In this document: in pieces, positions 11,401 to 64,000 of the stretch
How the letters are laid out: each line of letters opens with the position of its first letter
Numbering within the stretch: position 1 is the first letter of the stretch
Assembly: GCA_964036665.1 (NCBI GenBank)
Contig: OZ038528.1
Coordinates: 19,145,245-19,209,244 of the forward strand
DNA: 64,000 nucleotides
DNA from: Gordius sp. MW1
Taxonomy: Eukaryota > Nematomorpha > Gordioida > Gordea > Gordiidae
Reading direction: 5' to 3'
The notes under the pieces: generated by a model
What the model was told of the DNA's origin: nothing
The model's input: the letters and a program-made list of their open reading frames with translations, nothing else
Database searches by the model: none
Translations under genes and position numbers: made by a program

Positions 11401-14400
11401 TAAACTCAACAAAAAATAATTTTTTCGATTTTCTGGCCCCTCCCCCTGCAAATTAGAACGAGAAGAATCAATCTCGTGATAGTGCTACTCACGTGATTGC
11501 CTTCGTCCCTAGCGCCGAGACTGACGGTCACGAGATCGCGAGTAGCCACGTGGCCGAAGTGGACACCCGGAGTTGCCAAGGCACATGTCACGTGACACCA
11601 CGAACTTCGATCCGAAGTGGCCTTTAAAGCACCGCCCCGGCACCCGCAGAGCAAGCAGAGGGCGGCGGAAAGGGCGTGGCTTCCGCAAGGGTCACACAAC
11701 CATTCCTCAGCCTCCGTCAATTCCCCGACCCCGTAACAAGCTAAATGAATGAACGAAAGAATAAATACCAAATAACTAATAAATATTGATCGTTTAGCGA
11801 GGTGCCAAATGAAAATTTGTGGCTGAGTCTTCTCTTTTATGCATATGGATATGAAATTATCGTTAATGAGATTCATATTTTGAACTTGAAATACCGTATT
11901 TACACATCTCGAAAGTTTAATCTTTAGCTTTAAACTGCGTAAATATAAATGAACTATATCGTTGTTTATAAACAATTTGAAATATAAAACTCAAATATAT
12001 TTTTTAGTCGTAGGAATTAAAATTAGGCAGCTAACATCTTATGTATCTATAATACCCGCGTGAATTCGGACTTTGCAAGAAGAACAAGTTAAAAGTCGTT
12101 GACCGTCAAAGCAGGTGGCTTGAGGAGTGCTGTCACCTCCAGAACCCGCCACGTGACTATCCCCCTTGACCCCGCCCACTTCTGGTAACAATAGTTCTCC
12201 CCCATCAACCGGTCCCAGGGTGGTAGTGGGGGCTTTTTTGACCACGAAACAAATTTCTGGCATTAAAATGTCGCAGGAGGCGGGTGGAGCAGACATCTGG
12301 CATAGCATTATGTAAGAAAAACGGTAGGGGTAAGCAAAAAAATAACCAACAAATAAATATACAAAAAATAGAATACCATTGGGGAGTTTGGGAGAATACT
12401 TTGGTCGTTCGGGGCCAGCAAAAATTTTAGATCGGATGACCGCGTTTCACCCAAAACAATAACTTCTTCTTCATCCAAAGTCTTAGTTTTGAGGGGGGTA
12501 GGGGTTTGGAGTAAAGGCGTTTCGGGGAGATCGACGGGGACGTTTGGCACGATTGGCTATTTCGATAACGAGCGTCAAAAAGTATAATCAATATGACGAA
12601 TTATAAATAGTTACATCAAATTAAGTATTACACGAAATGTATATTTCAAAAACTTGACGTATAGGGGGGGGATTAAGTATAATTTGTGTTCACCGTAAAA
12701 AACTCTACCAACATCTACAAACAGTTCGCCGGTTAATTTTATAAGTCATTTATTCGTTGCCCAATGTTGTTAAAGATAAAAATGTTGCTAAAAGATATTA
12801 ATACCTATATAGAGCCCTGCAAAATAAAATTTCTTCGGCCCGAGCCCGGCCCGAACAACTTTCCTATTTTTGGCCCGATCCAAGCTGAGTCTAGCCCAAT
12901 TTTTTAAATTGAAACTTTTCAAATTTTATTTTATAAATATGAAACGCATTAAATTGTTATTACTCCTAATTTACAACAAGGATAAGTTTGAAATGAAAAA
13001 TCCATTTTAACTCGCCACAATTTATTTAACTAATAATTGAAAACTAAAAATCTAACTTTATAAATATATTTTAATTAACGATTCCAAACAAAAAAAACTT
13101 TTTAAAACTTTTCCTTATTTGATCTTTAGAGTAACAGCTGCTATGAATTTTGCAATTTTGTTAAAAATATTATAATAGACGGGAGGAAAAAGCCGAAGTT
13201 TGGAGGCTGTATTATTTATGGTGTACGAAGATAATTATACAATTACTTTCGTCAATTCTGGCCGGCCAGAGGCCCGATTATTTATTAAATTCTGCCCGAC
13301 CCCCCCCCTGCAGGGCTCTATACCTATAGCAGGATTTTGCTAAGTTATATTTTTACATAAATATATAGCCCTGGCTATTTTTTATACAATTTGTTTTCGG
13401 TAGACGGGCGAAAAAATGTCTGTAGGTTTACTTACTAATTTCAATAATACTTTAAAATAAAAATATTAAAAAAAAGATAAACGTAGAAATTAACATTTAC
13501 GTTGTTTTTTGGTTGTTTATTGAGGTTTTTAACGGTTCGAGGCTTGAGAATTTGACAAATGGCGCACCAAGCATCACCCCAACCAAATTCAAAATTATAT
13601 TTTCGGAGATGTTGGGCGTCTTGGGTATCGCAATGCGGGGTGGCCGGACAAAAATATTTGGCCCGAATAATGGGGTGGCGAAAAAGAGTTTGGGCGAAGA
13701 GGTTAACATCCGTTGACCGTTTAACAACGTTACATTTTGTTACGCCATTATCCCCCGAAACTTTAGAAGATATTCCTCCTCCTGCATACGTTTTTGTTTT
13801 TGATTATAAATAAACTATGATTACCTCAAAATAGATGGCGAAGGTAATGGCGTTATTGTTTCAAATAAGTTTCGCTAGTAAAACACTTTTTTTTGAAGCA
13901 ATTGGGTAGTTAAGTTCTTAGAACCAATATAAAAAATTCATGCATTATTGAAAAACGTTGTTGAACAAAAATCCACGTGGGAAATTAAATAGAGTAATTA
14001 ATATCTCGGTAATAACATTATTTGATTCTCGGATCTAATATTTTAAATCTCCAAAGTAAGCCCTAACAATTTATTTATTTAATCCTATCGACTTAATTAA
14101 AAGTTGTTGAATATATCAAATTAATCATCCATTTAATCTAAGGCTCAGCTCAACTATCTCACAACCAAACGATATTTAAAATCATTCAAAGTCAGATGGT
14201 TCATTTAAGTAAATGCAGAAGATTTTTACGTTTTTAATAATATTTATATATTTAATTTAATCCCTTCTTGTCTACTATATTAATTTGTTCAAACATAATT
14301 TCTATCATCTATCAGTACAATTAAATTGTTTAATTTCGTGTATTTTACAGACCTAAAGTCGGTTGTGAACATGCAAAAAAATATTTAGGTATTTGACTTA

Positions 14401-17400
14401 AATTTCTACTAATATAAAAACTTAATACTCGAAGTTCTCTTTTAATCGGAATCCTTCTTTTGGCATGCAAATAATTTATTTCCAAATAATTTAATTTAAT
14501 ATATACAAGACTTTTTTAATAACTAATAAAGGTTTATTTTAAATCATAGTATATAATACATGCAAAATATATTCAATAAATGAGCTGACCCTAAAAATTA
14601 TATTAAGCAGAAATTTACAACGCAAGAAATAATTAAATGAATTCAATAAAAAATCAAATCGTATGTATGGCAAAACTGAGACCTATTACCCGACGCGAAG
14701 GGATTTGGTGCAATAATCTCCATGGATGAAACACGGTCCAAGTCAATGACCTTAAACAGGGGCGAAGGCAAGGCAGCAGGGCCGGAAGGGATTGCTGGGA
14801 TGGGTCTTTCGAAATTTTCCGGAAAACAAATATGGCGTACCGCCGGCCCAGGATCCTCCGCCATATTGGATTCTTCCGGTCGGGTGTTAACCGGTTCGCT
14901 AGGAGGGATTCCTCCTCCTCCTCCTACGAGCAGTAATCGAGGCGGGCGCAAAATACTCGAGGAAACGTAGTGCCCTAAAAATGGCGGACATTCGGACTCC
15001 TCTTCCCCCGTTCCTTGGGTCAATGCGAAGGTTCGATCTTTGTGTTGTCCCGCGATGAGACGGGGTGACGCGAATATCGTATCCTTCCGCGCTCGCTTGA
15101 TCGGTTTACCACCGCACTTCCGGACATCAATAATTCCTCCGCCGTCGTGGCCGCCATGTTGAGAGGGGGCGGCGGACTTTCGATAGGCCGGGAGCCGTTT
15201 AGATTTGTAAATTTTGGCGGGCAGCCTTTTGTCAGCCCCATTATTTTGGTTAATTGATGTCGGGGTTTTTGAAACTTGAGGGGTTGTTGAGTTTCTAAGA
15301 AAATAAGTGGGACCCATAAACAATAATGGATATTGGACTTGGGGGAGGTCAAAAAATTAAAGCCAACCAGCGGTCATTAGATAGTGTATTTGCGAAACCA
15401 AAATGCATAAGTCCACACCCATTAAAAACCCTTATAAGTTTCCTGTTCCACGATAATAATGCAAAAATTACAAGTTGGACAGGACAACCAAAAGCGAGCC
15501 CATAAATTGCATAGCAATAAATATAAGTTATTAGTGTTTAGCAAGAGTCCTGCACCACCCGTCAGTGGCATAGATTTATAATGCTATAGAATGGCGAACG
15601 GCTGTTTATTGCATTGAATTCATTAAGCAACACAGGCCGGCCACCATTTTTAGCAGGAGACAACACTAAAGTTAATGTGTAAATCTTCTATACAATTTTA
15701 CTACTCACAATGTAGTTTTAAAATATTCACCGAGCAGGAGTTTTTTCTTTGTTAGGGTCTTTTCTTATGTGATGTTATCTCAATATAACTTTCTAAAGAT
15801 AAATATTAAAATTTAACAAAGTAATTAGAGATGAGTTTGTTAATGTATAAGATGACGGACTACACCCTTACTCAACAATTATCAGTTCTTCCCCAGTCTA
15901 TAGTATTATTAGTCTATGTTCAGGGACCCTAGCCCGGTCTCAGGGTGGGCCGAGTTAGGACAAAAATTAATAAAATAGTGAATCAGGCTCGGTCTAAAAC
16001 TGTTACTAAGTAATAAAGTGCCAGTGAATGAAACAAAATTTGTTGCTCATGTAATTGGTATTTGTATTTATATATATATAATGAATATTTAGAAATGCAT
16101 TGATCTATTCAAATTAAGATATTAAGAGACAACTATCTTAACCCTCGAGTCGGCAAAGAAAACATTTTGTAAAAAAACCAATCAGACCTTCTATATAAAA
16201 AACCCAAAGAAACTTACTCTGACGGTTGATTTTTATCTCTCGTAGCCAGCCATTTAGGTAAGAGCTCGTTGATCACGTGATCGGAGTAAGCCTTATAAGC
16301 GGGCCCATCTTCTGGGTGTGGGCCTAGGTCTAAGCCCGCCTTCCAAAGTTCCCACCTCTCAGGTTGATATTTTTCTACGAACGGGTCCATCCCTATCCTC
16401 ACCATGTCTGGGCTGCACGTACACTATCGGAATAGGAAAAAAAATTCAATTTGGATATGCTTGAATCTTTCTATAACCCTAACGCTACTTTAGTCTGGTT
16501 AAAAATATATTAAAAAAGCTTTCAACCTAGGTATAACAAATTGTTATTGCTACAAGAAACTACTAGAAAGGCGAATGCTTTCGAAGTAGTTAATAGCTCG
16601 TCGCACGTCACATGAGAGGTAGACCACAGTATACCACACTTACATACAGCATCTCTTTAGGTAAATCACTTTTAAGTGAATGAATGTAGGGAAAAACTCA
16701 CCAAAGAGGCCCGTTTCCCGTATTCGACCCAACGGATGGAGGCGAAATTAGTTGATTCGGCACAATTGTAGCCGTGGTTGTAGCCTTGATGATAACCGTA
16801 GGGAAAAGTTATCATAAACTCCCCCGGTTCTTGTGTCACCTATTACAAATACAATTGAAGAATAAAGTTAAAATTAATGGGACTATAATAATGGCTGGGT
16901 TTTGTTAGGTCGACCTGCGGTTCGACTAAGGCTAACGGTCCGGTCCGTTTTTAAAATTTCGACTAAGTCTGGAGGTCGACTAAGAAAAACAGACTAAACC
17001 TTAGGCTAAAACTAAATTTCGACTCAGCAACACCTTTTATTTTTTTTAAATAAAAGCGGCATAATAAGTAATATTTATTTATTTGTACCTATCTCTGTTT
17101 TTTATTTCATGCAGTTTTTACAGCATGTGCGTGGCTAACCAGCATGCGCGCGATGATACATATAATAAGCCAAATTAACTCATATTAAGGCCACTCGTTA
17201 ACACCTGTTAAAGGAAGTACCTTATTGAAGGGTATGGAATATTTTTTGAGTATCAAAGGCGATATCAGAGTCATCTTGTGGCGTAAGAAGGCCCGACAAT
17301 TTTTAGCCGTAGCCGCAAAGTAGTTGGAGGCCAAGCGTTCTAGCCTGCGCCCGAACTGGGGTGGAATGCAATACCACGATTTGGGGGCTCCGAAATGCAA

Positions 17401-20400
17401 ATAATTTATGCTGTACAAGTCTATGTCTTCCGTGTGCCACGCGAATGACGTTTTCCACATACCTATACAAACATGATTGTAATTAAAAAGTTTATATTTA
17501 TGTCGAATCATCAAAAAAAGACGATTTTCGACCGACCAACTTAGAACAAGATAATTTTTGGTGAGAGTGTAAGCCTCATGTATTAGAGTAATTTCTGAAA
17601 ATTTTAACCATTTTGCACCTTTATTTTTTAAGTTATGGCCGTTCAAAGGGCCTAAATTACGCTCAAGCACGTTTTATAAATTTTACTATTTTTCTCGTAT
17701 TTTTGAAAGTAATGGCGCTATTCACTTAATTTTTGGTGCATTTATTCCCTAAAAAATTATCTATCCAAATAAGATTACTCATTCTTTCTTGCAAAACCCT
17801 AGCAGCTTGCAGCTCAGATCATTAATATATTCGTTATAGTTTACCGAGTTTTGATATTAAATTAAAACGCGTGGTCCGGATGGTCAGATAAATATAGATT
17901 TGTTTTATCCATCTGGTGATATATTTTGATTTTAGTTTGAGATTTTCAATGAGGTTCGAGCCAAGTCGCGTTAATAATTTGGAATCGGCTTTGCAGAACA
18001 ATTGAGTAACATATTGTCACAGTTATTTACTCGTTTTATTAATGACGCAGTATTGGGCGTAGCCAGGGGGGGGGGGTACCCCCCCCCTTATAAATCCATA
18101 AATTATTTAAAATTTTATATAATTATAGCTAGAATTTTTAAAAATTGACATTTTGCCCCTCCCTCAAAAAACGAGCCCATAAATTGCATAGAAATTATTG
18201 ATTATAAATTTGGCTGCGTTAAATTTGACATCCTTCTATTAAAATAGTTAAAATAGCTGTTCTGCGGGGGACGAGTGCGAAAATACCGAAATAGAGGTAA
18301 GCCGTGTTAACGCCCTCGATTCGGATACTGCTATCGCGTCGTATGTCGTCCAAGATGGTACCCAACCGATTAATGTTCCATTCGGAGATGTGGGGATCGT
18401 ATAGGCTGCCCGAAATATCGGCCCCGTATATGGCTTGGTTGTAGAGGATGTTGGCCCAGTACTTACGCTCCAAATCGTCGTAGTCCGAAAAGTGGGGAGT
18501 GCGATGCCTGCGAGTAAAACAGGTGATAACATACATTCATTCGTAACGGGTATTAAATTTCAGATGTTGGGTTAGATAAATTGGAGGGTAAAAATCGTTT
18601 GCTTTTTATAAAAGGGTATTTTTCGTTGAATCATCAACTCATTTTACACGCCTAATATTTTTATGGGTACTCTAAACAATGCTGGTAATTTTAGCTTAAT
18701 GAATTATAGAATAATTACCTTTAACATCGTTTTGGAATTAATAACAAACGAGGATCAGATTAAATAAATCTTTTTTTACAAAACTTGCTATTTTAAACAA
18801 ATGCCATTGCATAAATTATATTTCATATGAACACAAAATTCATGCTTATCATTGTAAAATTCATTAATTTAATCAAATTCCTAATAAACATTTCAGGTCT
18901 TCTTAATTTTTCAAACATAAATTGGTGGCGTCAATTGATAAATAAATAAAAGGTTAATTTGTTGCTAAATTAAACACGTAATAATTTTTCCAAGCTTTCA
19001 AGTAGGGTCAGTTTTAATTTTCCAGGTCGGGTCAGTGTTATAAAATAAAAATAGTGACTGTGTTAACCCTAGATATAGTATAAAGTAGAGACCTGCAAAG
19101 CCCGGCCCGGCCCGCGGGCCGGGCTTTTACTTAAAAATAAAACAAAGGGCCGGGCCTGGACGGGCCGTCGTATAACTTAACGGGCTCGGGCCGGGCCGAG
19201 ATAAACTTAAGGCCCGTTAAAAGCCCGTGAAAAACAATTTGATATAGCATAGAGGAAGGTGTTTTTTAATGTTCTTATTTATAATTGTTTTATGTATATT
19301 AAATTAACGAGGAAAGCTAAATTTTATTTATATCTTAGTTCATTAATTCATCAAAATATCAACCCACATTTTAAACGTTAAAGATATTTATACACGAGAT
19401 CCCATGAGCATAGCCAATTTAAATTAGAGGGGAGCAGTTTAGGTAGGGCAAAATTGTTTTCAAAACCAATAAATTTTGGATTTGGAGGGGGGGGCAGCTG
19501 CCCATCCTTGCATCCTCATTTAAACCATCTAGCAATATTGAGTGAATTAATTCAATATTATGTAAGATTATTTATATATATTCTCATTAAATTTAAAAAC
19601 AAATTTTAAAATTTATTTCTTGAAGTTACTTTTGTAAAATATCACCGTTTTTTTTATTTTTATCAATAAACTGAAATGGTGGAAAAGCAAAGAAGCTAAG
19701 TATATTAAAAACATTATAAACTTAAATAGAAGGGTTTTAAAGTCTATTTAGCTAGTTTATGGACCTCGAAGTGCCATTTGTAAAAAAATTTTTACCCGAA
19801 ACCGACCAGACCCTAAAGTTTAAAATTTTAAACCCGAACCTAACCCGGCTCCACCCGGAAGCGTTTAAATTTGTTTTCCCGAATCCCTCCCGATCGCGTT
19901 TAAAATTTTAATAACGCGAGAGTAAGAAAAATTGCCGTGTATAAAATTTAATCGCCAAATTAAAGTACGATTTATAAAACTAATTGATACCACAGATGAT
20001 TTGTATTACTAAATTTATCTGAATGATTTATTATAGAGGTGTATAAATATGATAGCATATCTACAATATCGAGTCACATTTAATTTGGAATGTATAGTTT
20101 TGCAAATGAACCATTTATTAATTTTAAACTTGCTTTTATTTGTTTTATGCATTTACATTTATGTAGTTTAAATTAATAATGAACTACCTCTTCATATTAT
20201 TAAAATAAAATTCAAAAATATTATTTTGTTGATATATTTTATCTCTCAAATTTAAATTTGCGTGAAATTAAAACAATCCGATTTAAAAAAAACAAAGGTA
20301 TTTAATTACCTAAATAAAATAACTTCAATTATACATTTCGATATTAATCAAAAAATATTATATACATAATAGCATTCATTTAAAAGATATGTCCCGTGTA

Positions 20401-27750: not shown

Positions 27751-30292
27751 GGCTAAATCCCGAAAGCGCACAATCCCGAATTTTAATGCTACACTTTTAC
27801 GGCAATTAACATATGGTAAAAAATATGCAATCATATAATCAAGCTTTTAATGAATATTTGGTTGAGAGAACAAATCAAGATAATACAGAAAGTATAAGTA
27901 AGCTTAATATCTAAATATTTATAAATTATCTTTAGAATTTAAAAAGTCGAGTAGAAAAAATTTGATTCTGACCCATAAAGACTTGGATTATACCAAAATT
28001 AAAGATGGAAAACTTTATCATTTGTTAATTGTTAAAGCTTAATTTCATCAAATAAAAGTCTATTCTAGATATAAATAGGTTAAATCAATGATTCCTTAAA
28101 TTAATACTGAGATTCTTAAAAGTGCAGGAGATATTTAGATAACTCTTGACATCTCACATGAAGGTAACTTATAATTCTTAGCACTTATATATTATATAGC
28201 TTATTCAAATTATTTGTAAGTTTATTTATAACATTCTATGATTTTTTAGGAGAGGGTGTATCAGTTCTTCCTACAAATCTTTAGATTATACAACAGAGCT
28301 AGAGTATTATCATTTGTTAATTGTTAAAGCTTAATTACATCAAATAAAAGTCTATTCTAGATATAAATAGGTTAAATCAATGATTCCTTAAATTAATACT
28401 GAGATTCTTAAAAGTGCAGGAGATATTTAGATAACTCTTAGGTAAAGTTTCTTTGAATATGACTAATTTTGCTCATAACAAAAATAGCTTTTTTAATTTT
28501 ATGATGAACATATTAAATAAGGTACAAACTATAAATTTAGAAAATTTGGCTAAAAAAAACTTAAAAACAAAAATTAATAGAATCGTCCAAACTTAAGGAA
28601 GTGTTGACACTTTAAATAAAAATACATCATATAAGGTTATATTTAATAATATGAAAAAATCTAAATGTAATGTCTATAAACATATACAACTATAAAAATG
28701 ATAATTTTTGTGTAAAAATGAGTATCAAATTTAATTTATTGTAGATTAAAATGAAAATTATAATTAAGTAACTTAATAAACATAGTATAATGAGTTCATT
28801 AATTTAGAATTTTTGTGTATTAAGTTGCTAAGCTTTAATAATATTTACTATAATGTATAAACTCTTAAAACTATAAAATTAGATTATAAAACAAAGCTAA
28901 AATATTGTTATTTGTTGATTGTTAGAGCTTAATTTTATCAAATAAAAGCCTATGCTAGATATATATAGATTAAATGAATGAAAGTATAACCAATCTTTTA
29001 CTCATTGATAGATTACTCATTATTTACAATTTTATAACCATAAATTCAACAAATTCCATAAAATGGTATCAGAAATATACATGTAATATTTTCCAAAACA
29101 AAATTTTTATAATGTGGGTCTAACTTAAATTTCTATATGACAATAAGTATATTATTGATATTTCTTGAAATTAAGTTTGGTAAAATATAAAATTTTTCAC
29201 ATTCCTAAAAAAGTTATTGATAGGTACCAGATTTTCATAACCTGCTATAACATTTTCTAATTAGACTTTTTAAAACAAGAACAAGATTTTAAGGCATTTT
29301 TTTGCTAGGCTCTTTGGTAAGCATTAAATGTAAAAATTGGGGTAAGAGTTTCATCCATCAATCATCTTATATATCAATATAACAGCACATCAATAAGTAA
29401 ACATTAGTTGAGGTAGATAAAAATAAAATAGAAATAGTTAGTGATTTAGTTATAAATAAATTTGCCTTATAATAATAGCAAAAACTTAATACAAAAGCTT
29501 ATCTAATCACATGCACATTGATACTAATCATATTTAACAATGATCCCTTTACAATCTTATAGGATCTAAATTAAGTTATATAGCATCATAAATTGTATGA
29601 ATAATTTCTATTTAATCTAATGGCTAAAGAGATTGCCCTTTTAAAATTTAATATTTTTTCTATTAAAGTACAAAAAAACTTTAACAAATTTCTTATATGT
29701 TTACTTGCTGAGATTATACTCTGTAACTATATCACTTAACGTTCTAAATATTCCATTAATCAACTTTTATAAAAGAATCTAGAGGCATGGGATAGCACTG
29801 GGATGATATCCTTTATATAATACTTAAATTTATTATATATTGCTTATTTATACACCACCTTATACCAAACAAACGTATATCAGTTAATTATATAATTAGT
29901 AAATTGTAAAGGTTCCACCCAAATATAGCTCTTGAGTACATAATACCCAAACATTATTGTATACCTAATAGGATTAATGATTCCCTGATTTTAAATACGT
30001 TAAAATTACCTTAGATATTGATTCCAAACGATTATTATTAATGGCATCCTTTAATTTATACCTTGTCACTAAATATTAATACTCATCAGTGATCTGTAAA
30101 TAAAGCTATATTATGTTACTTGGTGCAGAGGTTAATTAAATGTGATTCTTACATAAGTAAATTGTAAAGGGGCACCCAAATCTTGCTCTTGATTATGGAT
30201 AAAACTTTAAAATTAAAAAACATATGGAAATTTGAAAATCGTAGCAGTAGCATTATTGTAGCTTCGGGATTGTGCCTTTTCGGGATTTAGCC
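27751..30292. mobile_element. 2.54-kb TIR element, unassigned superfamily
   Basis: Inverted ends GGCTAAATCCCGAAAGCGCA and TTTTCGGGATTTAGCC, both also containing CAATCCCGAA, flanked by TA on each side (possible 2-bp target duplication). The interior is very AT-rich with many stops, and I found no transposase motif. Two internal near-identical segments are listed separately. Confidence 0.65.
28018..28440 (+). repeat. ~125-bp direct duplication inside the 2.54-kb element
   Basis: Copies at 28018-28143 and 28309-28440, about 95 percent alike, share TTTGTTAATTGTTAAAGCTT through GCAGGAGATATTTAGATAAC. A decayed third copy starts near 28908. A separate short duplication (AGTAAATTGTAAAGG) lies at 29902 and 30157. 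Confidence 0.8.
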
Positions 30293-31728: not shown

Positions 31729-32174
31729 TAGTGTTGTTAAATTGCTAAGTAGCTTCAACTACAAACGCGAGCACGCACACTAGCTGTTAATATGCTAGTT
31801 TAGCACAATGTGTGCTAGCTGTTCGGTGCAATGGTTTTAACAGTAGCATGTAAAAATGCTCGAGGGGTTAGTCGAAGCAGCCAAATCCGTTAAAGCATTT
31901 AGTAGAAGCTCGAGTATTAAATTCGAGCAGATAGTAGATTGAATTGCTATTTGTTGAAATTTAGTAACTTACAATTTTTGCTCATGGTATTTTATAAAGT
32001 TATTATATTATTTATAGTTTTATAAGAAACTAAGCATGTTGAGCATAAAATGATGGATTGCTCGATAATTGGATGAGATTGTATATTTGATTTTATACCT
32101 TACATGTAATTATATACATTTTGAGTTTTTAGGTATAAATATTTTGTACATGTGGTTAAATATATATGGGGTAA

Positions 32175-32480
32175 ATGTCATAATCTATATTTAAGATGCG
32201 ATTTAAATTTTTTTAGAAATTGTGACTCACTAAGAGCTTAAAAAATGTTTTTCACCTTTGAAATTAAGATTTTTCATAATCTAAATTTATAATGCGATTT
32301 AAATTTTTTTTGAAACTGTGACTTACTAAGACCTTAAATAATGTTTTTCACCTTTGAAATTAAGATTTTTAAAAGTTTAGAGATCGCACAGGTGACAAAT
32401 ATATGAATCTATATTTATGATGCGATTTAAATTGTTTTCGAAATTGTGACATACTAAGAGCTTAAAAAATGTTTTTCACA
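32175..32480 (+). repeat. Left tandem array of the hAT element
   Basis: Three units of about 100-120 bp, each with ATGCGATTTAAATT, TGTGACT, AAGAGCTTAAAAAATGTTTT and CACCTTTGAAATTAAGATTTT words. The same unit appears in reverse orientation at 33690-34190. Confidence 0.8.
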
Positions 32481-33270
32481 AGGATTAATTCGAATGCAAC
32501 TTAAACTTACCCCTTTGCGTTCTTAGTAAATAAATTATTTGGGTTCGCAAAATGGATGCGCTTATATTCTTTTTAATAAAATTAATGCTTTTATTTCCTA
32601 GTGTAGTGCTAACTTTTACATAAATAATTAAAGTATTTTAAAGAAAAAAAAATATATTTGGATCTTAATTGACTTTTTTTCAAATTAGATTTTTTCATGG
32701 GTCGGGCCTTTAAAAAAATACAGACGGCCTAGAAAATTTTTAAAACGGGTACGGGCGGGTCCAAAGTGCAAAAAAAATACGAACTGGCCTGGCCGGGTCT
32801 AAAAATTTTAGGTAGGGGAAGGGGAAGGTGGGCCCACCTCTTAAAAATAACCCCTTTTAGATTTCTATTATGAATTATAACAGCTCTCACACCTGTGTGA
32901 CCGCTAAACTTTTTAAAATCTTAATTTCAAAGGTGAAAACATTTTTTAAGCTCATGAGAGCTTTAATTTAAATGTTGCGGGATACCAAGATTCCAGTATT
33001 AAAAAATTTACCTTCATCCATTAATACTACGGGTATTTCTAATTTAATCACTTAATATTTTTTAATTTTTTTTTTTCAAATTATGAAAAGCTGGTGAATT
33101 TACATAGGATGTATATATTAAAAGGATCATTTTTTCCAAATGAGATTGCTCGTAAAGAAGATGATTATACCTTAGCCATTTTAATCGTTTAAGGAGGTAA
33201 ATAAATTTTTATATAATATTTTAATGACGCATTTAGTTCAACAGAGTCCTGTCTTGATTATGCTGGCGAA

Positions 33271-33483
33271 ATGAATGAATATGAAAAGGACATTCTTCTA
33301 GCAGCGAATACAGTATTAGAATGGTGGAAGATAAACGAATCACGGTTCCCTGGATTAGGAAAAATGGTCAGAGATTATGTGGCACAGTCCACCACCTCCG
33401 TTCCAAGTGAACGGATGTTTTCTATGGCCGGAAATATTCTAACTGCGAGACAAAATAGGTTACCACCCACTAATTCGTGGTAG
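33271..33483 (+). pseudogene. hAT transposase C-terminal dimerisation domain remnant
   Basis: A 70-aa frame encodes ILLAANTVLEWWKINESRFP, then GLGKMVRDYVAQSTTSVPSE and RMFSMAGNILTARQNRL. This is the hAT C-terminal dimerisation domain (LxWWkxn...FP.L..mardyla..atSvpSERvFS.ag.i...R.rl). The upstream RNase H-like catalytic part with its DDE residues is missing, so this is a remnant of the element's own transposase. Confidence 0.9.
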
Positions 33484-33689
33484 CATGTGCCTAAAATCAT
33501 GGTAAAATATTAATTTTACACCCTAAATATGATCTAATTTCGTCTATTATATGTTTATCATTGATTTCAAAAACTTATTATAAGACTTAATAAAATTTGA
33601 AAATATTATATCCATGACGATTTTTAGTATTATTTTAGCCATCTATAAGTGAAAATTAAAAAAATTCAAATTGCATCATAAATAGATTA

Positions 33690-34190
33690 ATATATTTGTC
33701 ATCTGTGCGACCGCTAAACTTTTTAAAATCCTAATTTCAAAGGTGAAAAACATTTTTAAGCTCTTAGTAAGTCACAATTTCAAAAAAAAATTAAATCGCA
33801 TCATAAATATAGATTATGACATATGTCACCAATGCGACCGCTCAATTTTTAAAAATTTTAATTTCAAAGGTGAAAAGCATTTTTTAAGCTCTTAGTGAGT
33901 CACAATTTCAAATAAAAATTTAAATCGCATCATAAATATAGATTATGACATTTGTCACCTGTGCGACTGCTAAACTTTCAAAATCTTAATTTCAAAGGTG
34001 AAAAACATTTTTTAAGCTCTTAGTAAGTCACAATTTCAAAAAAATTTAAATCGCATCATAAGTATAGATTATGACATTTGTCACTGTGCGACCGCTAAAC
34101 TTTTAAAAATCTTAATTTCAAAGGTGAAAAACATTTTTTAAGCTAGTGAGTCACAATTTCAAAAAAAAACCGCATCTTAAATATAGATTA
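33690..34190 (-). repeat. Right tandem array of the hAT element
   Basis: Four to five units of about 120 bp with TGTGCGACCGCTAAACTTTT, AATTTCAAAGGTGAAAAAC, TTAAGCTCTTAGTAAGTCAC and TCGCATCATAAATATAG, in inverse orientation to the array at 32175-32480. The two arrays can pair over several hundred bases. Confidence 0.85.
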
Positions 34191-35232
34191 TGACATTTAC
34201 CCCATATATATATATTTAACCACCTGTACAAAATATTTATACCTAAAAACTCAAAATGTATATAATTACAAAAAAATCAAATATACAATCTCTTCCAATT
34301 ATCGTGCAATCCATCATTTTGCTCAACATGCTTAATTTCTTATAAAACTATAATATAATAACTTTATAATATAGTATGAGCAAATATTGTAAATTACTAA
34401 ATTTTAACAAATAGCAATTCAATTCAATCTACTATCTGCATTTACTACTCGAGCTTCTGCTAAATGCTTTAACAGATTTGGCTGCTTCGACTAACCTCTC
34501 GAGCATTTTTACATGCTACTGTTAAAACCATAGAAGTCTATGGTTAAAACTATTGCACCGAACCGCTAGCACACGTTGTGCTAACTAGAATATTAAACAG
34601 CTCAGTGTGCGTGCTCGAGCATAGCACATAGTTAGCATTGCTAAAGCGAGCAATTTAACAACTCTAGGGTTCAATGAAAATTGTCGTATCTGTTTTATCG
34701 CATCAAGTATTGTAGTGACTAGAGATGTCAAAAAATGGTAAGGTTGCTTGAATCAAATCCTAAAAGTTATCATTGTTTAACAAAATTAGCTTTTCTTTTG
34801 TCATCATCGAAACCCTCCTGATGGCTATGAAGAGAAGTTTTATTTGAAAACAAGATGTCAAGCTTAATAACAATACCGCCACATATGGTAGACTTGAAAT
34901 TTTCAGTGAAATTTGAAAGTCATAACACTCTACGAATGATAGATATTTTAATTCTTTTCAAGAAATATTAAACGTGATGACGTACTTAGTAATTATTTTA
35001 ACCCAGAATTGATCTACTTATTAATTTTAGTATAGTAAAACTTTTGGAGACAAGATTTTTTGTAATATAGACCTAAAATAATTCTAAAAAAATGGCATGA
35101 CAATAAAATTACTGATCATTCCAATCAGAACCAGATGTTTTAAGCCCCAACAATAATTAAAATTAAATGGTGTCCAGGTATAGAGAAACAGATATATCAT
35201 AAAAATATGTAATAAATTCAAAAGGAAATTAC

Positions 35233-35894: not shown

Positions 35895-36332
35895 ATGAGT
35901 TTAGCAAACGCGTTTATAAAAATGATTGATGTTGTACATAAAAATCCTCAGAATCGGGAAGCCGTAGCAAAATCTATATTAAATTTATGTTCTTATTCTT
36001 ACAATTTATTAAAAAATAATAAATTAGCAAAAGGAAATGCTTTAATTGTTGCTCAAATTGCTGGAATTTTGGCAGCTAAGAATACTCCTTATTTTATCCC
36101 GTTATGTCATAATATACCTTTATCAAGCGTAGATATCAAATTTGAATTTGATGATATTCTTAAAGATTTGCACATTGAATCAAAAGTTAGAGCTTTTGCT
36201 AATACAGGTGTTGAAATGGAGGCATTGACGGCATGCTCTATTGCTTCATTAACAATTTATGATATGTGCAAGATGTATTCTAAAAACTTATCAATAAAGA
36301 AGATATATTTAGTCAATAAAATAAAATTTTAA
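35895..36332 (+). CDS. MOCS1: Cyclic pyranopterin monophosphate synthase (MoaC/MOCS1B-like)
   Basis: A single uninterrupted 145-aa ORF with the MoaC fold signature: KMIDVVHKNPQNREAVAKSI, KGNALIVAQIAGILAAKNT, IPLCHNIPLSSVDI, NTGVEMEALTACSIASLTIY and DMCK. MoaC converts the cyclic dihydro-GTP product of MoaA to cPMP in molybdenum-cofactor synthesis. The residues usually tied to catalysis (Lys of KGN, His of LCH, both Glu of GVEMEALT, Asp and Lys of YDMCK) are present. It resembles the animal MOCS1B version (SYNLLKNNKLAKGNALIVAQ) more than bacterial ones. An in-frame TAA lies 15 bases before the ATG. The usual C-terminal GGKSG/GGQRGD is absent; the ORF ends YLVNKIKF. No intron, unlike its neighbours, and no MOCS1A part is visible. 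Confidence 0.88.
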   Translation: MSLANAFIKMIDVVHKNPQNREAVAKSILNLCSYSYNLLKNNKLAKGNALIVAQIAGILAAKNTPYFIPLCHNIPLSSVDIKFEFDDILKDLHIESKVRAFANTGVEMEALTACSIASLTIYDMCKMYSKNLSIKKIYLVNKIKF

Positions 36333-49669: not shown

Positions 49670-50494
49670 TCACGTGCTTGGGGGATTTCTTGTTTGGTTT
49701 TCCCCTCTGGTTTCCAATATTTCGCTTTCCCAAAAGCTTAAGTCGATTTCTTCCTCGTTTCCTATTGCCGATAGGTCTAAAGTTTCTATGTTGGGCAATT
49801 GTGGTGGTACGGAGTATTGTGGTGTTTCTATGAACGTGCGGGACGGTTCGTCCGCCGGGTTGTCGGTCGTGGATACCCATCTTAAATTGTAGTGTAGCCG
49901 TAATAGGTGAGACACGTCGTAAGAGGCTACAAAGTATGCGATGATTTTCTCAACTACGGGTGAGTTCGATCCTCCTTTTTTGAGTACGAAATACGCTGTC
50001 ATGGAGTCTGTAAAGACTTTGGGGTATCTGTACCCATTATGGATGGCATGCAGGTAGGCATAAATTGCTGCTAGGGTTTCTGTGGCCGTTATGTGGTTAG
50101 TGTTGACCCAATCTAAACCGATGGCTTGGGCTGCTGTGGTGAACGACACGGAGAATTTTACGTTGTCCCACGAGATGCCTATGTGCGTATCGGATGCGTC
50201 AGCATATATCGTCGTGTCGCATTCCCTATGTAGCGGTACGATTTGATTTAGCAGTGCGAGACATCCTTGTAGTTTCATTGAAGCTGCTGGCCTATCATGG
50301 GTGGTGCCTTTCCCCGTGGATATTGCGTAGAACGTGGTGAACAACTTGGGCATCCCTGTTAGGTTGTAGAAAAAATAATTAAGGACTCCCAACGCTTCCA
50401 GGAGAGCGTAAGCTTGTGGGGGACCGGTGTTGCCAGGTACAGAAAGAGTATGTCCGCCGCGTGTCGAAGGCGTTTCTGCGTTTCGTCGGTGCAT
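49670..50494 (-). CDS. RNase H ORF of the compact retroelement
   Basis: 274-aa frame overlapping the end of the RT frame by 136 bp and lying in the -1 frame relative to it. From about 50420 onward the sequence (YALLEALGVLNYFFY, then MKLQGCLALLNQIVPLH) reads as the natural continuation of RT into RNase H. RNase H catalytic motifs: TTIYADASDTHIG (Asp), ATETLAAIYAYLHA (Glu), VFTDSMTAYF (Asp), NPADEPSRT (Asp). A -1 frameshift near GGTCCCCCAC (about 50425) would fuse it to the RT; whether that is programmed or a mutation is not clear. Confidence 0.85.
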   Translation of the reverse strand: MHRRNAETPSTRGGHTLSVPGNTGPPQAYALLEALGVLNYFFYNLTGMPKLFTTFYAISTGKGTTHDRPAASMKLQGCLALLNQIVPLHRECDTTIYADASDTHIGISWDNVKFSVSFTTAAQAIGLDWVNTNHITATETLAAIYAYLHAIHNGYRYPKVFTDSMTAYFVLKKGGSNSPVVEKIIAYFVASYDVSHLLRLHYNLRWVSTTDNPADEPSRTFIETPQYSVPPQLPNIETLDLSAIGNEEEIDLSFWESEILETRGENQTRNPPST

Positions 50495-51534
50495 TTGACC
50501 GTGTGGGTTGCGAAGTCGAGGGACATTCCTAGGTATTTTAGCTTGGTTTCAGCTGTAATGGACGACTTCTGCGTGTTTATGGTGAGGCCCCAATCAGTGG
50601 CCATCTGCGCAATGTTTCCAAGATCGGTTGTTACGTCATCCTCTTCTTTTGCGAAGATGAGTATGTCGTCAAGGTAGACGTTGTAATTGCATCGAGAGAC
50701 GGCTGCTTTCACTAGGTCGGCCACAGTGGTTTGCAGTACGTAAGGGGAGAATGACGCTCCCATCGGTAGTACATTGTATTGGTAGTTTCTCCCCCTCCAT
50801 CTGTACCCGCAGTACCGTTTGTAATTTTTATGGAGGGGTATACTGAAGAAGGCCGCCTTTAGGTCTATTTTGGCGGCGAAGTTAGCATTAGCTAATTGCT
50901 TGGCAGTCAACGGGATTGTCGCCAGTCTTACAGGTAAGTGGTGGAAGTTCCTAGAAGCTTCCGACATGTCCGTGATGACCCGGGCGTCTCCGTTGGCTTT
51001 GGCAAGGAAGAAGGTGGCGGAGGTGATGGCGAGCGCTTGCGTCTCGGAGACAACCCCCGATTCCTTCATTGCAGTGTAATAGCTGGGGCTTCCTTTCGAT
51101 ATGCTCCCCCACTTCTCGGGTTTGAACAAACCGCCATTTGCGCTGATCTTGGCTTTGTTTAGTGGGGGCTTAAAACCTTCAAAGGCTACTTTGAGTGTGA
51201 AGGACGACATCAGCGGGTGAGGCTTTAGCCTTGTCGTTTTTATGTCCAGCGGGCCCACCGGTTTCTTGTTGGTGGAATCTTTGCCCCATTGGAAGAGGTC
51301 TTTGTGGTTGCTCATGAGTGTCGGTAGCAATCCGGATCCTTGATCAACCTCGAGTGGCTCGTCATCGGGGTTGATACGATTCGCCGCATCGGGCGGCGGC
51401 ACAGGGTACGTGCGTGGTGGCAGCGGGTCCGGTGTAGGACTTGGGTCGTCTGTTGATTGCGGAGGCGAGAAAATAAGACGGCGCGTCTCCCGTAAAAAAT
51501 TGGTGATTTGGCGCCACCACCTTGGGGACTGCAT
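50359..51534 (-). CDS. Reverse transcriptase ORF of the compact retroelement
   Basis: 391-aa frame. Residues 1-60 are proline-rich, the rest is RT: ARVITDMSEASRNFH, NFAAKIDLKAAFFSIPLH (motif A Asp), NVLPMGASFSPYVLQ (motif B), NVYLDDILIFAKE (motif C, YLDD), WGLTINTQKS (motif D), LKYLGMSLDF (motif E). All catalytic Asp residues are present. Closest in style to DIRS-like/Ty3-like RTs. The final ~25 residues of this frame lie past the shift into the RNase H frame. Confidence 0.9.
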   Translation of the reverse strand: MQSPRWWRQITNFLRETRRLIFSPPQSTDDPSPTPDPLPPRTYPVPPPDAANRINPDDEPLEVDQGSGLLPTLMSNHKDLFQWGKDSTNKKPVGPLDIKTTRLKPHPLMSSFTLKVAFEGFKPPLNKAKISANGGLFKPEKWGSISKGSPSYYTAMKESGVVSETQALAITSATFFLAKANGDARVITDMSEASRNFHHLPVRLATIPLTAKQLANANFAAKIDLKAAFFSIPLHKNYKRYCGYRWRGRNYQYNVLPMGASFSPYVLQTTVADLVKAAVSRCNYNVYLDDILIFAKEEDDVTTDLGNIAQMATDWGLTINTQKSSITAETKLKYLGMSLDFATHTVKCTDETQKRLRHAADILFLYLATPVPHKLTLSWKRWESLIIFSTT

Positions 51535-51607
51535 GTCTCGGTCTCCGTTTGGGGTCGGTTCGCCCGAGGGCCCGTAACCCCATTGTTCAACAATGCGCTT
51601 TAAGAGT

Positions 51608-52330
51608 TTACGAACGCGGGGCAGGGGCCGCGCTCTTCTGGAAGTGTCGGCCCGGCTTGCTGCCTCGGCCCCTGCCAGCGCCTCGAAAAAACGATTTCTT
51701 GGGTGATTTCGGGGCGCTTCTTTTTATATCAACGTTCTGCCAGCCCATCTCGGCTAGCCAGCTTGTATCGGTCTTTATCGCCGTGGCCCAATTGTATTTG
51801 ATGGCTAGGCATAAGGTCTTGAGCTGTTTATCGTGCGTTGTCAAGACCTCTATTGGTATAGCGGCCGTACAGGCTTTGGTGATTTCTATAGCGTACTTGG
51901 CTTCGTGCCGATCGCGCTTTTGGATTCTTTGGTCTGGATCTTTTAGAAGAGCGTCCAGACCTTGTGTGTGTTTTAGTATATCTTCGTATACGTTAGCCGG
52001 AGTTTTCGGGACTTCAGGCGCGGGTAAAACTTGCATGGTTGGCGGCATTGTTGGTTGTAACGAGCCTTGTGGCACCTCTCGGATGGCTAAGGTGCTCATG
52101 ACCGTGAGGGAGGATTGCAGCATTTCCCGCATTGCGTCAATTTGACGCTGATTCGCTTCGGCCAGCTTCTGGTTTGTTTTGGCCTGCTCCTTCTGGAACT
52201 CCACCAGCTGCACTATTAGCTCATTAGGGCCCCCAGCGGGTAACCCTGCTCTGACAGGGCCCAAAGCGGAGCTTCCAGGGCTTAGTGGAGTTTCCCCGTC
52301 TTTTCCCCGATTTCCAGCCGGCTTGGTCAT
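51608..52330 (-). CDS. gag-like ORF of the compact retroelement
   Basis: 240-aa frame beginning 18 bp inside the 5' terminal repeat. It has a likely coiled coil (EFQKEQAKTNQKLAEANQRQ), a proline-rich stretch, then a conserved-looking helical part (LKHTQGLDALLKDPDQRIQK), and a basic RGAGRGRG tail that could bind RNA. No CCHC zinc knuckle. Position and build fit a structural protein; family not identified. Confidence 0.75.
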   Translation of the reverse strand: MTKPAGNRGKDGETPLSPGSSALGPVRAGLPAGGPNELIVQLVEFQKEQAKTNQKLAEANQRQIDAMREMLQSSLTVMSTLAIREVPQGSLQPTMPPTMQVLPAPEVPKTPANVYEDILKHTQGLDALLKDPDQRIQKRDRHEAKYAIEITKACTAAIPIEVLTTHDKQLKTLCLAIKYNWATAIKTDTSWLAEMGWQNVDIKRSAPKSPKKSFFRGAGRGRGSKPGRHFQKSAAPAPRS

Positions 52331-58141: not shown

Positions 58142-58491
58142 ATTTAAAGGGAGGCGGACACAGTGAAAAGTTAGGTGTATAAGATGATGATTCTTTAGTT
58201 TCAACCACAATTATAATGAGAAATTGTCGTATATGTGGATACGTGCAAAAAAGATTAGTTTAATTTAGTATAATAACCTTTATTTGTATAACATTTTCTA
58301 CAGATTATATTATTGCTAGTATTATATGTTTAAATATTGTAAGCCAAAGCCGAGTTGGTAAAACAATATGATTTTATAGATGTATTCATGGATGTATTGG
58401 CTTTTCGCTTCTGCACAGCCTCTAGATTTTGTATCGTCTAGACGACCAATCAAATTTACCCAAATATTTTCTCAAGTAATGTCATAACACT

Positions 58492-60114: not shown

Positions 60115-60760
60115 AGTAAGCTGCCCATATGTTATAGGCTTGAGAGGCAATTTGGTTAGGTTGTTGGGAGGTGGAATTGCACAAATTCTAGCAACTTGTG
60201 GACCTAAAAAGTATTAAAAAAATGTAATTCATATTTACGGGGAAAGGAAATTGTTGTGGAATTGGTAAGGCTGTTCTAAAAGGTGAAATTACACAAATCA
60301 TAGCAACTTGTGGACCTAAAAAGTATAAAAAAAATGCAAGTCTTATGTATTTAGAGAAGCAAATTGTTGGGCTGGAATTGGTAAAGTTGTTCTAGGGGGT
60401 GGAATTGCACAAATTCTGACAGCTTGTGGACCTAAAAATTATAAATAACGCATTTCGTATGTACTGGGGAAGCTAATTGTTGGGCGGAAATTGGTTAGAT
60501 TGTTCTAGGGGGTGGACTTGCAAAAATTCTGACAGCTTGTGGGCCTAAAAGGTACAAAAAGTGTAATTCTTATAAACTGCGAGAAGCAGCGTATTGGACT
60601 GGAATTTACCTAGGCAAAGTTATTCGAGGAGCAGTATGAGACACATTTTCACAACATTTAAAGGTTGACCTATAAATTCAGATTAAAAAAATTCATACAA
60701 TGTATTATTACAAGGCTGCCGTTTTGATGTTTGGGGTTTGGTAGAAATTTGACTTATGAT
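60115..60760 (-). pseudogene. Decayed inverted copy of the tandem micro-exon gene
   Basis: Reverse-complement homologue of 61283-62080. The first exon corresponds to 60760-60713 but its ATG has become ATA. Then a GTCAACCTTTAAATGTTGTG exon and four repeat exons follow, with TTTTTAG acceptors and text such as SPQAVRICAIPPPRTTLPI. The copies differ from each other by many changes, some donors are lost, and no C-terminal exon equivalent to 62082-62413 was recognised. Confidence 0.7.
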
Positions 60761-61286
60761 GCTAAAATTCTAAAACGGAAAAATGGATTGTGCGCCCTCG
60801 TTGTTTAAAATTGGAACTATTTCGCGAATCTTCGTTATTCAGATTTTATGTTATGACATATACACTTCTGCACAGCCTCCAGATTTTGAATCGTCACGAC
60901 GACCAATCATATTTTCCCAAATTTTTGCACGAGATATGTCATAACACTAAGAGCATGGATCATAACACTAACAGCGTGTGTCACAACATAAAATTTAAAC
61001 AACCACTCATATTATGGCGAAATAGTTCAATTTTAAATTTTTACGCTCCTGCACAGCCTCTAGATTTTCCATCGTCACAACGACCAATCAAATTCACCCA
61101 AATATTTGCTCCGAGTAATGTCATATCACTAACATCATGGTCAAAACACAATCAGTAAGTGTCATAACATAAAATTTAAACAACCAATCAGATTATCGCA
61201 AATTACTTCCAATTTTAAATTTATATTAATTTTTACACAATTGAGACGCTAAATCCATCTTTCCGTTTAGTTTGAATTTTAGCAAC
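60761..61286. promoter_or_regulatory. Divergent spacer between inverted gene copies
   Basis: About 500 bp shared upstream region of the two diverging copies. It holds two direct repeats (CTGCACAGCCTC..., near 60867 and 61047) and inverted words such as AAACAACCAATCAGATTA / GTTTAAAATTGGAACTA. Promoters for both copies are expected here; no clear TATA box was identified. Confidence 0.45.
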
Positions 61287-62413
61287 ATGAGTCACATTTC
61301 TGCAATTCCCAAAACATCAAAACGCCAGGGTATTTGTAGTTAGTTATACATTGTGTATGATTTTTAAAATATAAAACTTTAGGTCAACCTCTAAATGTTG
61401 TGAGAATGTGTCTCACTACAACAGCTCCTAGAACAAATTTCCCAATTCAAGCCCAACAATTTTCTTCTCCAAGTATATAACCCTTGCATTTCTTTGTACT
61501 TTTTAGGTCCACAAGCTGTGAGAATTAGTGCAATAGCTCTTCCTAGAACAAATTTGCCAATTCAGGCCCAACAATTTTTTACTCCAAGTATATAACCCTT
61601 GCATTTCTTTGTACTTTTTAGGTCCACAAGCTGTGAGAATACGTGCAATAGCTCCTCCTAGAACAAATTTCCCAATTCAAGCCCAACAATTTTCTTCTCC
61701 AAGTATATAACCCTTGCATTTCTTTGTACTTTTTAGGTCCACAAGCTGTGAGAATACGTGAAATACCTCCTCCTAGAACAAATTTGCCAATTCAGGCCCA
61801 ACAATTTTCTACTCCAAGTATATAACCCTTGCATTTCTTTGTACTTTTTAGGTCCACAAGCTGTGAGAATACGTGAAATACCTCCTCCTAGAACAAATTT
61901 GCCAATTCAGGCCCAACAATTTTCTACTCCAAGTATATAACCCTTGCATTTCTTTGTACTTTTTAGGTCCACAAGCTGTGAGAATACGTGCAATAGCTCC
62001 TCCTAGAACAAATTTCCCAATTCAAGCCCAACAATTTTCTACTCCAAGTATATAACCCTTGCATTTCTTTGTACTTTTTAGGTCCACAAGCTGTGAGAAT
62101 ACGTGCAATAGCTCCTCCTAGAACAGATTTCCCAATTCAAGCTAAGTCAATTATTATTTTCTGTAAAAAACAGGTACGCGATAAAAATACGCGTATTAAT
62201 ATTTTACGCGATTTATACATGAATACATCGCGTAATTACAATATTTTTAACTATGTAGAAAATATAGCTAAATATATTTCATATAGTGGTACTTCGCGCG
62301 TTTATAATCCTGTTAATTTTTCTTCGAACTCGCATTTTGATAATAATTCGCTTGATGTTAATACTATTCCGCGTGAAAGAGACACTAGTGATTTTACTAG
62401 TGACTCCGAATAA
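61287..62413 (+). CDS. Tandem micro-exon gene encoding a 27-aa-repeat protein, 289 aa
   Basis: Eight exons: 61287-61329, 61383-61472, five of exactly 81 bp (61507-61587, 61622-61702, 61737-61817, 61852-61932, 61967-62047), and 62082-62413. Every junction is phase 1, so each 81-bp exon adds 27 residues of the type SPQAVRIRAIAPPRTNFPIQ plus AQQFSTP. Six 34-bp introns, each from GTATATAACC to TGTACTTTTTAG, are essentially identical and contain in-frame TAA, so the array is only open when spliced. The N-terminus is MSHISAIPKTSKRQG. The last exon changes from repeat to a unique 90-residue tail (IIIFCKKQVRDKNTR, NYNIFNYVENIAKYI, a Ser/Asn-rich part, acidic end TSDFTSDSE). No domain recognised; the repeat part looks unstructured. 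A decayed mirror copy lies at 60115-60760. Confidence 0.72.
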
Positions 62414-62984
62414 AATCTTTGTTGTAAAGTAACATACTATAGTAATCAGTGTAAATATTTGCTAAAGGGGTTAAATAAACAAATGTTAGCATCTATTTAA
62501 AGTTTACTTAGCATTTTGTTTCTTTAGCCTATAATAATTATATCCCCTGAAAATGTCATACATATATATGAAACATCGCGAGGTCCACTAGTGTGAAAAT
62601 TAAGGAATATATAAAGTCATTTCAAAAGGATGCCATTTTACTTACCCAAAAATTATCACCTTCATGCCGGTCTATAATTTCATAAATCTATGACAATAAC
62701 AGTTTCTCTAAGGGAAAAAAAATATATAAATTAGTTTCAATACGAAGGGATTATTAACGATCTATCGTCTTATTTATTAATTCTAATCTAAAGGCGCGAC
62801 GAGGAAAAAAAATACACGAAAATAAGTTTAGAGATATATTTTAGTTTTCTACATTTTTTTCCTTCTTTTATTATTATCGACACACCAAAAATATAATAAT
62901 CATCATTCTACGAGCGATATCGAGGTTATCAAATATATTTGCTAAATCACGTTAATAAAATAACGATCTTAATTCGATATAATA
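62414..62984. other. AT-rich spacer
   Basis: Holds the probable 3' UTR of the micro-exon gene and, on the other strand, one candidate HOOK exon at 62646-62687. Otherwise nothing recognised. Confidence 0.45.
62646..62687 (-). CDS. HOOK: Candidate HOOK CH-domain exon
   Basis: A 42-bp segment with a GTCATAG acceptor and TTTGG|GTAAGT donor on the - strand encodes IYEIIDRHEGDNFW. The EGDNFW end resembles the EVGDNWR segment of the HOOK N-terminal CH domain. If correct, the HOOK gene continues to the right and the micro-exon gene lies in one of its introns. The match is short and the exons that should follow it (before 57809) were not found, so this is tentative. Confidence 0.25.
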
Positions 62985-64000
62985 AAACTCGTGCCTTCGG
63001 CCCTCGTGGGAAGGGGGAGAAGGGAAGGGAAGAGGGGAAGGGAAGGGGGGACGACTTATCTGTACTTCGTATAAATGTATCATATTTGCTATGCAATTTA
63101 TGGGCGAGAAAGGTGGGAAGGGGCGAGAATGCCTATAGGGGGGGGGTATTAAATGCCTAATGATTAATTAATTATTAATACAAATTTTCCATTTATATGC
63201 AAAATGGAATATAGGCAAGGGTTAGATTTAGTGTTTGCATCTAGTTGCGTATTACATTAGTTTTTATTGATTATGGGTCTAACAAACATTATATTATAAA
63301 ACATCACAATGTTAAGAATTTGCAGAATTGTTGGGAGAAATTTTTTGTTGAATTTGAACAATTTTTAATTAAAAAAATCAAAAATTTGGCCAATGGTCAT
63401 TTTTTCTCCATTGGTCAGTACCAACAGATACTCTATAAGTCAATGATAGCCAAAAAAACGGAAAAAAAAATTTTGATGCTCACTTTGACCAATGGTCATT
63501 TTTTTCCATTGGTCAGCAGCCAGGACACGGTAAAAGTGGATATAAATTCATAATAGTCAAAAAAAACGAAAAAAAAATTTTCAAATCACATTTTGGCCAA
63601 TGGTCATTTTTTTCCATTGGTCAGCAGCCAGCACACGGTAAAAGTGGATATAAATTCATAATAGTCCAAAAAAAACGAAAAAAAAAGTTTTCGAATCACA
63701 TTTTGGCCAATGGTCATTTTATTCCATTGGTCAGCAGCCAGCGGACGGCCAAAAAGTGATAATAGCAATGGTAGGAACAGGAACAATCATAATAGTCAAA
63801 AAAAAACGAAAAAAATATTTTCGATTCACATTTTGGCCAATGGTCATTTTTTCCATCGGTCAGGAGCCAGCGGATGGCCAAAAAGTCATAATAGCAATGG
63901 TAGTAACAGGAACAATCATAATAGTCAAAAAAAAACGAAAAAATAAACTCGGATTCACATTTTGGCCAATGGTCATTTTTTTCATTGGTCAGCAGCCAGC
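62985..64000 (+). repeat. Satellite complex (copy 3), runs off the window
   Basis: Same order as copy 1: CTCGTGCCTTCGGCCCTCGT, GGGAA tract, ATTTATGGGCGAGAAAGG, then CCAATGGTCA...CCATTGGTCAG units near 63388, 63487, 63594, 63706, 63834 and 63962. Long stretches are nearly identical to 9090-9900, so the two copies spread recently. Confidence 0.88.

Follow-up and report, generated by a model that had tools for sequence, protein, structure and literature searches.

What kind of gene carries five exons of exactly the same length, separated by introns of 34 bp that are identical letter for letter? This question is raised by positions 61287-62413 of a 64,000-nucleotide stretch of contig OZ038528.1 from the hairworm Gordius sp. 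MW1, the whole of which we refer to as the window. The initial annotation took these positions for a gene in its own right, resembling the micro-exon genes of flatworms and closed by a unique last exon. Here we compare the locus with its relatives in the same genome.

Exon-intron anatomy of the locus

When spliced in silico at GT-AG sites, the locus consists of exons of 43, 90, 5 x 81 and 332 bp, and every exon joint is in phase 1 (Table 1). The predicted product has its ATG at 61287 and a stop ending at 62413, and it encodes 289 aa without an internal stop, so the single frame first proposed stands. The same is true of the symmetric phase-1 pattern, with five exons of exactly 81 bp and six letter-identical 34-bp introns. 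The frame was also said to be closed unless spliced, and five tandem copies of the unspliced unit consensus indeed contain stops in all three frames. Tandem Repeats Finder reports a period of 115, 6.2 copies and 96% matches at 61425-62142, in agreement with the proposal that exon and intron were amplified together as DNA. Within the last exon, most of repeat 7 extends up to ~62142, and a transposase tail occupies ~62146-62413.

Table 1. Positions within the window of the predicted exons and introns and of transposon-related sequence around them
Feature	Position	Strand	Remarks
Decayed relative of element 5' region	60152-60757 (approx.)	-	~113-bp units; donor sites partly lost
Left-end sequence, copy 1	60865-61003	+	CTTCTGCACAGCC...; 85% identity to left end of C1 copy
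Left-end sequence, copy 2, direct repeat	61044-61184	+	86.5% identity over 141 bp
Start exon	61287-61329	+	43 bp; MSHISAIPKTSKRQ; phase 1 at its end
First intron	61330-61382	+	53 bp, GT-AG
Exon 2	61383-61472	+	90 bp; first array exon, diverged
First 34-bp intron	61473-61506	+	One of six identical
Five 81-bp exons	61507-61587, 61622-61702, 61737-61817, 61852-61932, 61967-62047	+	Phase 1
Five-exon block	61507-62047	+	Encodes 27-residue repeats of the SPQAVRIRAIAPPRTNFPIQAQQFSTP kind
Remaining five 34-bp introns	61588-61621, 61703-61736, 61818-61851, 61933-61966, 62048-62081	+	
Last exon	62082-62413	+	332 bp; partial seventh repeat, then transposase C-terminal tail
Junction without core	62142-62146	+	Array end and tail start 4 apart, versus 1462 in 9 of 10 young loci
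Transposase-gene 3' flank	62414-62661	+	Common to relatives; 90% identity to L026 until 62661

Elsewhere in the window, a host gene resembling the lysine demethylase KDM4 lies at 11400-18560 on the reverse strand (JmjC exon 17185-17670, E 2.7e-43 to KDM4A; PHD-like exon 11406-11975), and its introns appear to exceed 34 bp by a wide margin. An open frame at 35895-36332 on the forward strand has a MoaC domain (E 5.2e-47) and is presumably part of a molybdenum cofactor gene. A GC-rich reverse transcriptase ORF (RVT_1, E 2.1e-25; GC 0.52 at 50-52 kb) occupies 49670-52330 on the reverse strand. The region 31831-34531 contains inverted arms that are up to 98% complementary (pieces between 31831-32475 and 33682-34531) and include ~96- and ~128-bp tandem repeats, perhaps representing another foldback-like element. 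Two blocks, at 9111-10565 and 63008-64000, each combine a GGGAAG-rich stretch with 107- to 129-bp tandem units of similar consensus behind it; the second block lies within a stretch that interrupts the transposon copy described below. Fragments at 28015-28981 and 58406-58491 resemble the 5' region and left end of that same transposon.

Relatives of the locus are Mutator-like elements

We searched the genome (212 Mb in 12 contigs) and scored 40 of 65 candidate matches. On that basis, the locus has at least 70 genomic matches, on contigs C1 to C8, and its array matches many loci at ~84% identity. The last exon proved to be anything but unique, with nearly full-length matches at 86-96% identity in at least 15 further places. 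The idea of a gene in its own right fared no better: in relatives, the array lies in frame before FLYWCH and MULE domains. Flatworm micro-exon genes also have many small symmetric exons, but these are diverse and single and measure at most ~36 bp, whereas here 81-bp clonal copies of one exon plus its intron sit in a transposase gene. The small symmetric exons and very short introns would suit a free-standing gene of the flatworm kind. However, we regard this origin as extremely improbable, since the last exon is the C-terminus of a transposase found at those other places, the array elsewhere precedes open transposase frames, and the 81-bp exons exceed micro-exon length.

The copy on C1 (L020) encodes a FLYWCH finger (PF04500, E 1.6e-7) ahead of a MULE transposase domain (PF10551, E 1.6e-6; 28.9 bits, above the cut-off of 27.6). 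In an alignment with 10 public MULE proteins, some of which are partial predictions, D273 and E396 never vary and D207 hardly does; we take these three residues to be the DDE catalytic triad. Linker and transposase exons continue the frame of the array, with introns of 38, 38 and 37 bp. A stop-free chain of 525 aa from linker to tail, 0-3 residues from that of the C1 copy, is found in 9 of 11 young copies. The two others lack the full chain: a piece of the tail is missing from C4_16.0, and C7_18.8 is interrupted. A composite query of repeat and transposase best matched two proteins of Gordionus, another hairworm (37-39% identity, 55-61% query coverage), while the C-terminal transposase ORF alone had no homologue at E <= 0.001. 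The CCT-eta protein of the host matched proteins from many groups of animals, mostly at 69-73% identity (60-74% among the 120 listed of 6038 matches, from 8000 scored candidates); Gordionus is not among the names in that list, in which many entries are nameless. The ORF listing of L051 and L052 yielded nothing of use.

At their left end the copies have CGCTTCTGCACAGCC... in common, and at their right end ...GACGTTGCATATGATTC. Exact target duplications of 8 or 9 bp, within the 8-11 bp range of Mutator-like elements, flank all eight young copies tested, which are 4,909 to 6,935 bp in length. The test left out the C1 copy, which stops before the right end, and two head-to-head copies at C8 35.09-35.10 Mb. 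The terminal inverted repeat is weak, consisting of an imperfect 24-bp match at equal offset at both ends that 380 of 5000 shuffles score as high. Judged from its domains and target duplications, the element is Mutator-like with Phantom features. The head-to-head copies (L009/L010, C8:35.089-35.105 Mb) are young and near-identical, with 43 and 34 counted units; an extra left-end piece past one right end looks like a nested insertion or a palindrome.

To compare arrays, we counted as an array exon any acceptor with a neighbouring acceptor 110-120 bp away. The 11 young copies have 4, 4, 8, 8, 6, 9, 14, 2, 15, 34 and 43 such exons, and all 147 are open and exactly 81 bp long. A stricter count, restricted to exons flanked by two introns, gave 81 bp in 136 of 136. 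Introns with both ends found measure 34 bp (83 introns) or 35 bp (53). Between genomic copies, whole exon-plus-intron units thus vary in number in the DNA while the frame is kept, as in a coding VNTR. The range of 2 to 43 counted units accords with the original claim that unit number shifts the protein in steps of 27 residues.

The locus L026 (C3:4.014 Mb; gene at C3:4013.5-4018 kb) carries a diverged type of this gene that is complete, its 21 exons encoding 972 aa without a stop. An ATG exon of 46 bp is followed by sixteen 81-bp exons, a 66-bp linker and transposase exons of 590, 220 and 701 bp, and the introns measure 44, 15 x 34, 79, 39, 38 and 53 bp. Its repeat, SQIYSVRSCAIMPHMPIQFPVQTFAPT, has only 4 of 27 residues in common with the window repeat in an ungapped alignment. 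Despite this divergence, L026 and the window agree in exon size, phase and intron size. The L026 start exon, MQFSAIPQTSKRQ (reverse strand of L026), resembles that of the window, and decayed versions of such an exon occur at L012, at L013 and outside the window.

Other families show the same architecture. The C8_5.9 pair has 81-bp exons in five of five cases, with introns of 34 and 33 bp, and the array exons of L027 are one codon longer (84 bp in 4 of 4). Exons in intact families are 81 or 84 bp, and introns 33-35 bp. Degraded arrays depart from this: among the 11 exons of L025, one is 80 bp long and one stop occurs, one of the 2 exons of C8_0.55 measures 79 bp, and L012 has one stop in 2 exons and an 'intron' of 22 bp. 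Arrays of the L026 type were counted at 21 places, two of which are perhaps the halves of a single locus divided by a young insertion, and a window-type unit lies within ~0.45 kb at 12 of the 21. At L014 (4700-6001), a young copy has apparently inserted in an intron of the L026-type exon array of a decayed element.

The human LPA kringle IV type 2 coding VNTR offers one comparison. Its unit contains exons and introns. It is likewise a protein-coding tandem repeat, with 1-40 units per allele; however, its 5.6-kb unit belongs to a human host gene, whereas the 115-bp unit here belongs to a mobile element and varies between insertions. Minisatellites in Mutator-like elements are also described in passages of PMC6446971, after the transposase ORF in aphid Phantom (PMC6446971 Table 1) and before the 3' TIR in Rehavkus. 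The same passages give Phantom MULEs a FLYWCH finger, a MULE transposase and target duplications of 8-10 bp, all as here, but in our element the minisatellite precedes the transposase, inside the gene, as an exon/intron array. Tm1 Mutator/Foldback elements of root-knot nematodes, as portrayed in passages of PMC3169594, have variable repeats in their TIRs and share with our element the FLYWCH finger, the MULE transposase, 9-bp target duplications and a varying number of tandem motifs. In contrast, the Tm1 motifs are ~14 bp long and lie in the terminal inverted repeats, and those passages mention no coding role. We found no case of an exon-plus-intron array within a transposase in the PMC articles searched, judged mostly from titles and abstract openings, and no exon-array transposase appears in the passages of PMC6446971, PMC13359780 and PMC3169594.

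Proposed splicing and translation of the array, and selection on it

The best reading of these sequences is that an exon-plus-intron minisatellite encodes the N-terminal part of the transposase. In this model, an intact element would have one gene, beginning with a short ATG exon, as found in L026-type copies, and continuing through an array of 81-bp phase-1 exons with introns of 34-35 bp. A 66-bp linker exon would lead to three large exons for the FLYWCH zinc finger, the DDE core and an acidic tail. Near-identical insertions differ by whole units, and unequal exchange or slippage may add or remove copies of the 115-bp unit. With a symmetric exon and a minimal intron making up each unit, every such event would alter the N-terminus of the enzyme in whole steps of 27 residues. 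The repeats might contribute to the enzyme, interact with a host factor or act additionally as binding sites in the DNA.

Alternatively, the array could be a non-coding minisatellite in the 5' region of the transposon, with repeats that act as a promoter or bind the transposase, as in Foldback-like elements. The resemblance of its borders to splice sites would then be incidental, with translation beginning no earlier than the linker exon. Minisatellites in MULEs are on record, at least in passages of PMC6446971, and no clear or convincing ATG exon was seen ahead of the array in the young copies. Most of the aligned MULE proteins start near the FLYWCH finger, and N-terminal repeats of the array kind are absent from all 10, some of which are partial predictions, suggesting that the enzyme may not need them. 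Purifying selection on the amino acids of the repeats was not detected. Within arrays, there is no excess of synonymous variants (pooled S 5, N 24; close to the neutral expectation), so amino-acid constraint gives no proof of repeat translation. Because a shuffled exon is open by chance with P 0.22-0.29 and the units are clonal and related, finding open frames in five unit types is improbable only to a moderate degree.

Against a non-coding array stands L026, where a single frame of 972 aa runs without a stop from the ATG exon through 16 array exons, the linker and the transposase. Array exons of intact families hold whole codons, at 81 or 84 bp, while their introns take odd bases, at 33-35 bp. 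Linker residues ahead of the first ATG are similar between families (by eye), and that linker ATG is missing in C8_5.96 (also by eye). The array introns match short host introns in size, those of two chaperonin genes measuring 36 and 41 bp, and the transposase's own introns of 37-38 bp are similar. We therefore consider a non-coding array unlikely, and it is quite probable that the array is spliced and translated.

Comparison of the C1 copy with L026 gives a transposase dN of 0.089, a dS of 0.656 and a dN/dS of 0.14 (bootstrap 0.10-0.19), and the transposase is under purifying selection. The linker exon has a dN/dS of 0.25, with an interval from 0.09 upward that includes neutrality. For the array exons, dN/dS is 1.53 (0.66-9.2) between young copies and the window, 3.44 (1.04 upward) between young copies and C8_5.9, 1.19 (0.52-5.1) between the window and C8_5.9, and 0.79 (0.26-2.4; 23 aligned codons) between young copies and L026. 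The interval excludes 1 in only one of these four comparisons. When six unit types are compared without gaps, dN is larger than dS in 14 of the 15 pairs, although these pairs are not independent. These values suggest that the amino-acid sequence of the repeats is either unconstrained or diversifying.

The 34-bp introns diverge less than the exons in most pairs. Window and young units differ at 1 of 34 intron positions against 15 of 81 exon positions, and window and L026 units at 9 of 34 and 47 of 81. The exception is L026 versus L027, with 7 of 34 in introns and 12 of 81 in exons. Low intron divergence would be consistent with introns made up largely of splice signals. The last 91 transposase codons (L020 4263-4538; L026 reverse strand) have a dS of 0.135 between families versus 0.656 for the whole transposase, for which gene conversion or a DNA/RNA signal at the 3' end is a possible cause.

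A copy without its catalytic core

How does the window copy relate to intact elements? In 9 of the 10 young loci with both parts, the matched array end and the tail start are 1462 bp apart (3719 in the tenth). At the window junction, ~1.46 kb of the intact copies is absent, comprising the linker exon, FLYWCH and the MULE/DDE core. The PF10551 part is therefore lacking, and D207, D273 and E396 all fall within the missing portion. The transition from array to tail lies inside the partial seventh repeat, and positions 62146-62495 are 92.5% identical to the C1 copy. Upstream, the direct repeat at 61044-61184 is most likely the left end of the array-bearing element. After 62661, another repeat breaks the element; similarity resumes outside the window at ~65.2-65.5 kb, and a second decayed MULE copy follows at ~66.7-68.6 kb.

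Taken jointly with the coding model of the array, it is probable that the locus represents a Phantom-like Mutator (MULE) DNA transposon, in a copy that is missing its catalytic core. The copy is most simply seen as internally deleted, with loss of the core by deletion suggested by comparison with intact copies. It would make, if anything, a catalytically dead protein of repeats and tail. Such a protein might instead have come under selection after the core was lost, as the product of a functional or domesticated host gene, perhaps a regulator or a dominant-negative partner of the transposase. All eight exons lack internal stops, and past the junction the tail is still read in its native frame, while the related L012 and L013 carry a stop in the start exon (by eye). 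However, the frame would be kept by chance one time in three. For the tail, dN/dS is 0.70 relative to the C1 young copy and 0.92 relative to L026, and both intervals span 1; the same tail compared between C1 and L026 gives 0.43 (0.18-1.41). The element is also broken downstream and adjoins decayed copies. We thus consider domestication improbable. The missing core, the neutral-range tail, the interruption and the decayed neighbours together indicate that the window copy is most likely a dead or non-autonomous derivative.

As a tentative reading of the family as a whole, the transposase may have an N-terminal repeat domain that is self-amplifying and fast-evolving, encoded as an exon-plus-intron minisatellite of a mobile element. 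Minimal introns would isolate the exons and render each gain or loss frame-safe. The repeats would diversify while purifying selection holds the catalytic part, as if the repeats were engaged in a conflict with rival elements or the silencing machinery of the host, and core-less copies such as that of the window could serve as trans-acting inhibitors or decoys.

Arrays of this kind may be annotated as strange host genes although they are parts of transposons. If they are coding, the 2 to 43 repeats among near-identical copies of one genome form a natural series for the growth of an exon array. They would also allow one to ask how 34-bp introns are recognised dozens of times consecutively and whether the transposase N-terminus evolves in conflict with the host. 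Splicing and translation of the array would mean that a DNA transposon has made a minisatellite into a frame-safe way to resize its own enzyme.
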